Shown here piece after piece: positions 54,026 to 56,260 of a DNA stretch of 64,000 bases. Made by a program: the position numbers and the translations under genes. Every line of letters begins with the position of its first letter. Positions within the stretch are counted from its first letter, which is position 1. The stretch is from Halovivax cerinus (GTDB lineage: Archaea; Halobacteriota; Halobacteria; Halobacteriales; Natrialbaceae), in NCBI RefSeq assembly GCF_024498195.1, contig NZ_CP101824.1, positions 2,170,001 to 2,234,000 on the forward strand, read 5' to 3'. The notes beneath the pieces were generated by a model. That model was not told where the DNA came from. It made no database searches and was given only the letters and a program-made list of their open reading frames with translations.

Positions 54026-54955
54026 ATGGGATTCGACGAGATGGACGTCGACACGATCTGGATGGACGGGGACTTCGTAGACTGGGAGGACGCGAAGGTA
54101 CACGTCCTCACACACGGCCTGCACTACGGCAGCGGCATCTTCGAGGGCGCTCGCTGTTACGAGACCGAAGACGGCCCGGCGATCTTCCGCTGGCCCGAGC
54201 ACCTCGATCGGTTTTACGACTCGGCGAAACCGTACGAGATGGAGATCGACCACACGCGCGAGGAACTCACCGAGGCCACCTGCGAACTCATCCGCCGGCA
54301 GGATCTCTCGTCGTGTTACATCCGCCCGCTCGCGTTCTACGGCTACGAGTCCCTCGGTGTCAGTCCCGGCGACTGTCCGACTCGAACCGCCATCGCCGTC
54401 TGGCCCTGGGGCACCTACCTCGGCCAGGACGCTCTCGAAAACGGCATCGACGTGATGGTCTCCTCCTGGCGCAAACACGCCTCCAGCCAGGTTCCGACCA
54501 ACGCCAAGACCACCGGCCTCTACGTCAACAGCATGCTCGCCGGCGAGGAGGCCCGCCGCAACGGCTACGCCGAGGCTATCGTCCTCAACAAGGAAGGCAA
54601 CGTCGCCGAAGGCCCCGGCGAGAACATCTTCCTCGTGCGCGACGGTGACCTCTACACGCCCGGCCTCGCCGAATCCATCCTCGACGGCATCACCCGTGAG
54701 ACCGTCATCACACTCGCACGCGAACTCGGCTATACCGTCCACGACGGCGCCACCATCTCTCGCGGCGAACTCAACACCGCCGACGAACTCTTCTTCACCG
54801 GCTCCGCCGCCGAGGTCACCCCGATCAAGCGCGTCGACAACGTCGAGATCGGCGACGGCTCGCGCGGCCCCGTTACCGAAGCGATCCAGACCCGCTTCTT
54901 CGACGTCGTCGAACGCCGCACCGACGACCACGAGGAGTGGTTCACGTACCCCTAG
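54026..54955 (+). CDS. ilvE: Branched-chain amino acid aminotransferase
   Basis: The 309-residue fold type IV PLP enzyme has the PLP lysine in NAKTTGLYVNS, with HGLHYGSGIFEGAR and NVAEGPGENIFLV as further landmarks and GSAAEVTPI near the C-terminus. It interconverts branched-chain amino acids and their 2-oxo acids. It is followed immediately by a hairpin array. Confidence 0.96.
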   Translation: MGFDEMDVDTIWMDGDFVDWEDAKVHVLTHGLHYGSGIFEGARCYETEDGPAIFRWPEHLDRFYDSAKPYEMEIDHTREELTEATCELIRRQDLSSCYIRPLAFYGYESLGVSPGDCPTRTAIAVWPWGTYLGQDALENGIDVMVSSWRKHASSQVPTNAKTTGLYVNSMLAGEEARRNGYAEAIVLNKEGNVAEGPGENIFLVRDGDLYTPGLAESILDGITRETVITLARELGYTVHDGATISRGELNTADELFFTGSAAEVTPIKRVDNVEIGDGSRGPVTEAIQTRFFDVVERRTDDHEEWFTYP

Positions 54956-54981
54956 GACCAACGAACTTTTGCGCTGTCGTT

Positions 54982-55584
54982 CGAGAGAGCGAAGCTCTCT
55001 CGTGATGACGAAAGGCGCGAAGCGCCTTTCGAACCACGGGCCGACTGCGTCGGCCCTCGGCAAAATCTTCAAAAGAGCGCGAAGCGCTCTTTTGGACAGG
55101 GCGATTCCAAAGGAATCGCTTGCAGTCGGCGCGGAGCGCCGACGACCTCGCGGGAGCTTCGCTCCCGCTTAGCTTCGATGAAACGCACGGCGTCACCCCC
55201 TCAGCCACGACGGCGTCGTGGCTTCGAGGGTTCCTTGGCCCGCTCGCTCGTCCGCGCTGCGGACTCGCTCACGGTTCGAGTGCTGAATTCCCGCCAGCCT
55301 TTCCCCGGGTCGTGACATCGGCACGACGCGCCGAGTCACTCCCGGCCACCAGAATTGGTTCTTCGAAGACAGGATCCAGATCCCTGGCCGTGAGTTCGTT
55401 CGCCGTCTTTGCGAACGGACGAACCGGGGGAAGAGTGAGGTTGTCTATCGTATTGTACCGCGAGCGAGACCGTCGGCCGAGCGAGCGGGCCGACGACTGA
55501 CCCAAAGTGAGCGTAGCGAACGGCGGGGAGGAGGAGTGCTTTTGATCGACGTTTTGCCGAGTGCGGTCGCGTTAACGACCGCAC
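54982..55584. repeat. Array of ten perfect hairpins, mostly triloops
   Basis: Between ilvE and the DUF502 gene lie 54982-55002 (9 bp, loop GAA), 55009-55031 (10 bp, GAA), 55038-55056 (8 bp, TGC), 55071-55093 (10 bp, GAA), 55101-55119 (8 bp, AAA), 55125-55143 (8 bp, GGA), 55150-55168 (8 bp, TTC), 55205-55221 (7 bp, GGC), 55250-55264 (6 bp, GCT) and 55561-55584 (9 bp, 6-base loop). All stems are perfect and all differ in sequence. No gene is supported in 54956-55603; open frames here are driven by the repeats. Confidence 0.95.
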
Positions 55585-55603
55585 GCAGCGCAAAAGGTCG
55601 GTG

Positions 55604-56260
55604 TTAGTCGTCGTCGGTGCTGGCTTCGTCGACGACGTCGATGGGGATCCCGCCGCCCATGGGGCCGCCCCTGTCGGTGTCGCCGAAGCCGGCGCTCAGG
55701 ACCCGGGTGAGGGCCTCTTCGACGTTCTCGTCGATCTCTTCGATGTCGTCCGATTCCACCTCGACGACGTAGCCGCTGGTGATGTTCGGGGAGGTGGGGA
55801 TGAAGAGGATCTCTCGGCCGTCGTCGGCCACCTTTCCCGTACGAAAGCCGGTCATGCGGAGGCCGTCCCAGACCTCGAGTTTGACGGGTTCCTGGAGGGC
55901 TTCCTGTTCGCCGACGGCGGTCTGGGCGGCCATCTTGGAGGCGTTGTAGACGACGCGGAGGCCCGGGAGGCGATTGGCCACGTTGTCGACGACACGTTCG
56001 AAGAGGCCACCGATCGTCGTCCGCATCAGGTAGCCGATGGCGAAGATGAGGATGATCAGGACGGAGAGGGTGATCACGACACGAATGAGGCCGACGAGTT
56101 GCTGTGCCGCCTGGCCGTCCCCGAACATGGTGTCTTCGAGGATGAATCCTGGCGTCACGGCTGCGACGTACCCGTAGAGCCAGTAGAGGACGAAGAGGGT
56201 GACGAGGATGGGCCCGAGGACGACCAGGCCGCTCGCGAAGTCCCGTTTCCAGGAGGTCAT
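55604..56260 (-). CDS. DUF502 family membrane protein
   Basis: The 218-residue protein has two membrane helices (GLVVLGPILVTLFVLYWLYGY; LIRVVITLSVLIILIFAIGYL) and a C-terminal domain (VYNASKMAAQTAV, ILFIPTSPNITSGYVVEV). This is the DUF502 layout found in bacteria and archaea. It ends in an acidic tail. Plant homologues (COV/LCV) affect vascular patterning, but the prokaryotic role is unknown. Confidence 0.9.
   Translation of the reverse strand: MTSWKRDFASGLVVLGPILVTLFVLYWLYGYVAAVTPGFILEDTMFGDGQAAQQLVGLIRVVITLSVLIILIFAIGYLMRTTIGGLFERVVDNVANRLPGLRVVYNASKMAAQTAVGEQEALQEPVKLEVWDGLRMTGFRTGKVADDGREILFIPTSPNITSGYVVEVESDDIEEIDENVEEALTRVLSAGFGDTDRGGPMGGGIPIDVVDEASTDDD

Follow-up and report, generated by a model that had tools for sequence, protein, structure and literature searches.

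Why does one intergenic space in a haloarchaeal genome hold a dense cluster of hairpins in which loop length is fixed while the stems differ? The cluster lies in a 64,000-nucleotide stretch of the Halovivax cerinus genome (the whole analysed stretch is called the window here; the source genome is one contig of 3.90 Mb), in a 648-bp space between two convergent genes. We take the first to be an ilvE-type branched-chain aminotransferase gene, and the second presumably encodes a DUF502-type membrane protein; orthologues of ilvE are found in 124 of 125 Natrialbaceae genomes.

Two repeated elements in one intergenic space

A sequence-only reading had reported ten hairpins here, nine of them with three-base loops and seven packed within 187 bases. 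We located all of them: nine have a loop of 3, and the tenth (55561-55584) has a 9-bp stem and a loop of 6. Seven perfect loop-3 stems, at 54982-55002 (9 bp, loop GAA), 55009-55031 (10 bp, GAA), 55038-55056 (8 bp, TGC), 55070-55094 (11 bp, GAA), 55101-55119 (8 bp, AAA), 55125-55143 (8 bp, GGA) and 55150-55168 (8 bp, TTC), occupy the 187 bp from 54982 to 55168, and further loop-3 stems follow at 55203-55223 (9 bp, GGC) and 55250-55264 (6 bp, GCT). The longest stem is therefore 11 bp, and the range of 6-10 bp given by that reading needs correction. The intergenic space contains two copies of an element of about 220-390 bp, each beginning 3-6 nt behind the stop codon of its gene. We call this gene-3'-end element P1 and its first hairpin P2; six of the seven clustered stems belong to inserted hairpin-pair modules A, B and C, and the seventh is P2. 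The features are as follows.

54026..54955, forward strand: presumed ilvE-type branched-chain aminotransferase gene, open reading frame, stop TAG at 54953-54955
54962..55347, forward strand: P1 element copy 1, aligned to simple copies, 6 nt behind the ilvE stop, enlarged by modules
54962..54972, forward strand: 5' strand of the P1 outer stem, CGAACTTTTGC, whose partners GCAAAA (55060-55065) and CTTCG (55173-55177) are split by module B
54977..55036, forward strand: 60-bp module A, built as TCGTTCGA-hairpin-CGTGATGACG-hairpin-TCGAACCA, insertion site GCGCTG|CGGG
54982..55002, forward strand: module A hairpin 1, CGAGAGAGC GAA GCTCTCTCG
55009..55031, forward strand: module A hairpin 2, CGAAAGGCGC GAA GCGCCTTTCG
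55038..55056, forward strand: P2 hairpin of copy 1, GGGCCGAC TGC GTCGGCCC
55066..55172, forward strand: module B, which encloses module C, with hairpins at 55070-55094 and 55150-55168, ending in TTAG, between GGCAAAA and CTTCGATG
55095..55143, forward strand: module C, in the linker of module B, hairpins 55101-55119 and 55125-55143
55177..55347, forward strand: conserved tail of copy 1, with GATGAAACGCAC, hairpin 55203-55223, GGCCCGCTCGCTC, hairpin 55250-55264, then CCCCGGGTCGTGAC...CTCCCGGCC
55386..55600, reverse strand: P1 element copy 2, 3 nt behind the DUF502-type stop, simple form without module A
55561..55584, reverse strand: 9-bp P2 stem-loop of copy 2 (loop 6), lying between CGACCTTTTGC (55600-55590) and GCAAAACGTCG (55557-55547)
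55604..56260, reverse strand: presumed DUF502-type membrane protein gene, open reading frame, convergent with ilvE

The hairpin cluster is thus a composite of two repeated haloarchaeal elements, the gene-3'-end unit and the hairpin-pair modules. The idea of hairpins unrelated to each other is wrong, as other loci repeat the same units with their linkers, feet and order. What survives of the earlier description is a conserved architecture with freely varying stem sequences; what does not is the picture of independent hairpins arising without duplication, for these are recurring modules with conserved linkers in a dispersed gene-3'-end element. Copying of modules together with divergence that preserves the pairing of arms explains the pattern.

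When copies are read side by side, the simple form of P1 runs from the stop codon through CGAnnTTTTnC, the P2 hairpin, GnAAAAnnTCG, ATSAAAAGCACTCCTCC and more hairpins to a tail ending in CTCCCGGCC. The cluster region matches about 20 places in the host genome, as well as plasmids of several Natrialbaceae. A search with the right-hand arm was positive in 112 of 125 Natrialbaceae genomes, a 20-base core pattern occurs in at least 120 contig stretches, and most genomes of Halovivax and the Natrinema group have about 5-25 copies each of a strict 17-base pattern. Behind the ilvE stop, the element is present in 7 of 30 family members (six found by script, plus the enlarged host copy by eye), indicating that it has been gained and lost at one site. 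Seven viral contigs (L166-L172) also carry the P1 core motif, perhaps as proviruses or through capture of 3' ends.

P1 begins no more than 15 nt downstream of a stop codon in 83 of 113 copies, compared to 5% of random positions, which is the gene-3'-end location expected of an archaeal intrinsic terminator. Since TTTT stands beside a strong hairpin on both strands, the element would terminate transcription in both directions or protect 3' ends, and on these sequence features we regard it as probably a terminator; the shortness of a run of four T speaks against this role. Mapping of 3' ends in Haloferax volcanii found T-stretches, and hairpins at a subset of sites, near transcript 3' ends (PMC7237163), and the same combination is seen in P1. 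Unlike the mapped H. volcanii terminators, the putative terminator P1 is a conserved repeat with a TTTT-bearing outer stem that starts at the stop. The conserved CTCCTCC of the P1 tail, for example at 55547-55530 on the reverse strand, resembles the 16S rRNA 3' end (anti-Shine-Dalgarno).

Hairpin-pair modules and their insertion site

Module A has a constant layout of 54-66 bp, consisting of a GTCG-foot, a hairpin, a GTGATGAC linker, a second hairpin and a GTGG-foot. This pattern is found in 89 of 125 Natrialbaceae genomes and in 226 of 391 Halobacteria genomes, covering 72 of 86 genera, while a reversed-pattern control had zero matches in the 391 Halobacteria genomes. Two pattern hits in gut bacteria (L067, L070) are probably due to chance. 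By the strict pattern, copy number is 0-19 per genome. Among 96 copies, the left foot is GTCG in 91 and the right foot GTGG in 94, 177 of the 192 loops are 3 nt long, and the stems comprise 1784 Watson-Crick pairs (98.8% of pairs). A fixed sequence repeat is ruled out by the 44 different stems that these 96 copies contain. Triloops of the GNA type form very stable DNA mini-hairpins, and the preference for them noted from the window extends to the family: 125 of 177 module A triloops (71%) are GNA or its complement (TNC). The two stems of a copy are never identical (0 of 96 copies, compared to 9.2 expected by permutation), which fits the expectation that identical stems would mispair or be deleted.

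The other modules follow the same principle. Module B has 28 related copies, a count that leaves out one further pattern match judged spurious, with a GACCTC or GACATC linker and 0 homodimers. It occurs in two contexts, one of which is the linker of module A, where TCA flanks it on both sides. The module C arrangement recurs at L045 and L048 with different but still paired stems.

Module A copies sit at a preferred site, [GT]CGNNG|C. The full motif is present in 57 of 96 copies, compared to 0.7 expected, although for most copies the search pattern itself required the right-hand C; position -1 is G in 93 of 96. The flanks rejoin without target duplication, as in TTTTGCGCTG|CGGG and GCGGGAGCGAAG|CTCCCGC. 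With a triloop hairpin tip as their target (CGNNG|C), modules can enter one another and other palindromes and so build arrays, and nested modules are seen at L048 and L332. Complementarity of at least 6 bp across the insertion is found in a 0.18 fraction of copies, compared to 0.065 in permuted data; given this modest excess, the CGNNG|C motif is a more fitting description of the target than a long palindrome. Eleven of the 96 copies lie in a hairpin cctcgggg|cttgaccccgagg (noted at L299 and possibly at L317, L326, L214, L226 and L228). At L299 it is 28 nt behind a TnpB-like reading frame, and the guide-RNA end of TnpB elements may thus be a place of entry for modules.

The closest likeness is to bacterial REP sequences, described as repetitive extragenic palindromes with a GTAG or GT[AG]G foot that form head-to-head dimers (PMC3733652, PMC3116915, PMC6006769). 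Both REP/REPIN and module A are short intergenic stem-loops with stems of 6-11 bp and very short loops, the extragenic position of module A copies being judged from context. In both, tetranucleotide feet point outward, each dimer joins two different stems head to head, stem bases occur in alternative complementary versions, and copies form clusters. The 96 copies are head-to-head dimers, as the search defines them, and none is homodimeric; the right foot GTGG (94/96) fits GT[AG]G, whereas the left foot GTCG (91/96) does not. Module A further differs from REP/REPIN in being archaeal, in its far greater stem variety and its CGNNG|C site, in copy number (0-19 strict copies per genome, usual REP numbers being above 100), and in having no RAYT (Y1) gene, a hallmark of bacterial REPs, regularly associated with it, as 14 genomes with module A show no PF01797 match. 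No archaeal REP case was found in the REP literature checked or in open-access searches, and no description of the present elements in the open-access literature, where they may bear other names. Thus, module A is REPIN-like in its working and not a member of the REP/REPIN family.

Spread, turnover and maintenance of the hairpins

The reading that we favour, and think probably correct, is that the cluster is a composite of a P1 3'-end element and REPIN-like modules acting as DNA hairpins, with arms perfected by template switching. Module hairpins would work as hairpins of single-stranded DNA, and their copies would spread by a single-strand process resembling that of bacterial REPINs. In the window they have been inserted into the putative terminator element P1. 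Template switching would copy one arm onto the other, yielding perfect stems, inverted loops and stem sequences that drift.

What moves the modules could in principle be a known type of enzyme. It is possible, though we lean against it, that they are non-autonomous IS200/IS605-type elements mobilised by a Y1 (HUH) transposase, either in trans or formerly. As in IS200/IS605, module A has subterminal hairpins, a short one-sided target, a fixed orientation and no target duplication, the latter seen in the CGNNG|C flanks and at the L095/L159 pair described below. Moreover, Y1 genes (PF01797) occur in 93 of 125 Natrialbaceae genomes, tnpB or tnpA sequence lies near 3 of the 96 copies, and the host's single IS605-type element has two hairpins with 3-nt loops behind tnpB. 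However, no Y1 transposase (PF01797 match) was detected in 14 Natrialbaceae genomes carrying module A, and tnpA or tnpB does not regularly adjoin the copies, leaving a Y1 transposase unsupported as the current driver; a search through Y1 genes and copy neighbourhoods found no mobilising enzyme for module A. Module A also departs from IS200/IS605 in being geneless and only 54-66 bp long, in having two head-to-head hairpins, and in entering triloop tips. Unlike a MITE of a DDE transposon, it combines inverted ends (TSGTTCGA) with the lack of a target-site duplication. The element mentioned above is the host's only Y1 element (G000:C1:2486126-2487400, L258); both of its hairpins have GAA triloops and lie just behind tnpB, and they may be part of the guide RNA or of the right end.

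Alternatively, the modules may not be mobile at all, but be ancient palindromes shuffled among loci by homologous recombination and gene conversion, their hairpins made and corrected in situ by template switching. We consider this unlikely, yet observations at related loci speak for it. Behind orthologous stop codons, the element is swapped as a unit: coding sequences are up to 97% identical, whereas P2 and the two P1 strands are changed together. Mean identity of orthologous pairs is 86% for coding sequence, 88% for P1 with its linker and 58% for P2. Given such whole-element swaps, modules could spread by gene conversion from copy to copy, with no need for transposition. In H. ruber, the inner segment between inverted element copies (about 400 bp) is flipped relative to H. 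asiaticus and the window (L007, L008), aligning to H. asiaticus at 80.5% when inverted (401 nt) and at 72% when direct, which fits recombination between inverted copies. Against this, module A occurs in many unrelated contexts with one short target and identical end points, a pattern that is not predicted by conversion guided by flank homology. Clean presence and absence is also seen: L095 and L159 share 60 identical upstream bases, a flank of at least 60 bp, and one has modules A and B where the other has neither, P2 differing as well. The orthologous elements of H. asiaticus and H. ruber likewise lack module A, representing the empty site.

The swaps also bear on whether structure is maintained in RNA, namely whether compensatory selection, serving to protect or regulate the transcript, preserves the stems of what would be a 3'-UTR or small RNA. 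We regard this as improbable, although it has its attractions. The array is located directly behind stop codons, its RNA fold is stable (z=-7.2), and pairs 4 and 10 of the P1 outer stem covary, being Watson-Crick in 97% of cases compared to 49-55% after shuffling. Selection on RNA structure, first suggested by this covariation, is weakened because the covariation partly reflects swapping of whole copies, as the unit-wise replacement at orthologous stops indicates. Moreover, selection on RNA should tolerate G-U more readily than A-C on the transcribed strand, but mismatches number 9 G-T and 8 A-C in module A, and 9 G-T and 14 A-C in P2 read in gene direction. As G-T is no commoner than A-C, compensatory selection at the RNA level is disfavoured, and with it the sequence-only suggestion that RNA structure is selected. 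In addition, the DNA fold is as extreme as the RNA fold (z=-7.4), loops invert freely and belong to the DNA-stable GNA types rather than to RNA tetraloops, and an Rfam search of the region at gathering and relaxed thresholds returned only chance-level matches and no family.

Our preferred reading instead places structure at the DNA level. Published work reports that template switching makes arms perfect and inverts loops (PMC8794818, PMC8604942), and perfect arms, multi-base compensatory change and loop inversion are common to that process, as these two sources describe it, and the modules. The signatures of templated fold-back synthesis proposed from the window (perfect arms, loop inversion and no G-T excess) are present. 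Counts of loop triplets correlate with those of their reverse complements (r=0.88) and not with those of their reverses (-0.01) or complements (-0.08), and when loops on identical stems are compared, 242 pairs are reverse complements and 12 are complement-only. One orthologous loop inversion was observed (L315/L319). Loop changes other than clean inversions are commoner in orthologous module A pairs, and a preference for DNA stability on either strand is another possible source of the loop symmetry. In contrast to rRNA template switching, where loop inversions are reported to be very rare, the process here apparently acts on a dispersed family and inversion signatures are far commoner.

Finally, the fixed loop length was compared with control sequence. 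In a 0.86-Mb sample of the host genome, 29 loop-3 stems of at least 8 bp lie in intergenic DNA, compared to 6.0 expected under an order-3 Markov model, and 37 in coding DNA, compared to 36.2 expected; other loop lengths are much closer to expectation. The intergenic enrichment that the earlier reading had named as a check is thus borne out, with coding and intergenic DNA separated by heuristic gene calls. The sample comprises 40 stretches and is biased, as several were picked for known copies: 19 of the 29 intergenic stems lie outside the unselected stretches, some in copy-selected stretches and others in the window itself. The 34 unselected stretches have 10 intergenic loop-3 stems, compared to about 4.7 by our own estimate from expectation scaled by length. 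The loop-3 enrichment is intergenic and comes mostly from the hairpin element family. Chance or a base-composition artefact of a GC-rich genome, which may suffice for some single 6-bp stems among the ten that are at chance level, is effectively ruled out as an explanation of the cluster by this enrichment, by the packing of seven stems in 187 bp and by the absence of any control match to the module A search across 391 genomes.

Implications for haloarchaeal genomes

A bolder version of our reading, which we hold only tentatively and think more doubtful than sound, is that these are class-wide geneless mini-elements that enter triloop tips (CGNNG|C), each forming a new target for the next. Only their shape, feet and linkers would be conserved, stems being rewritten by template switching, and their single-strand movement would be independent of known Y1 or RAYT enzymes.

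For the biology of the group, a Halobacteria-wide counterpart of REP/REPIN would provide a natural test of whether template switching or selection keeps hairpin arms perfect, and carriers of module A without Y1 would allow a test of what moves geneless hairpin DNA. P1 is a recurrent haloarchaeal 3'-end element whose effect on termination is directly measurable. More generally, these elements carry the warning that covariation in such repeats need not mean selection on RNA.
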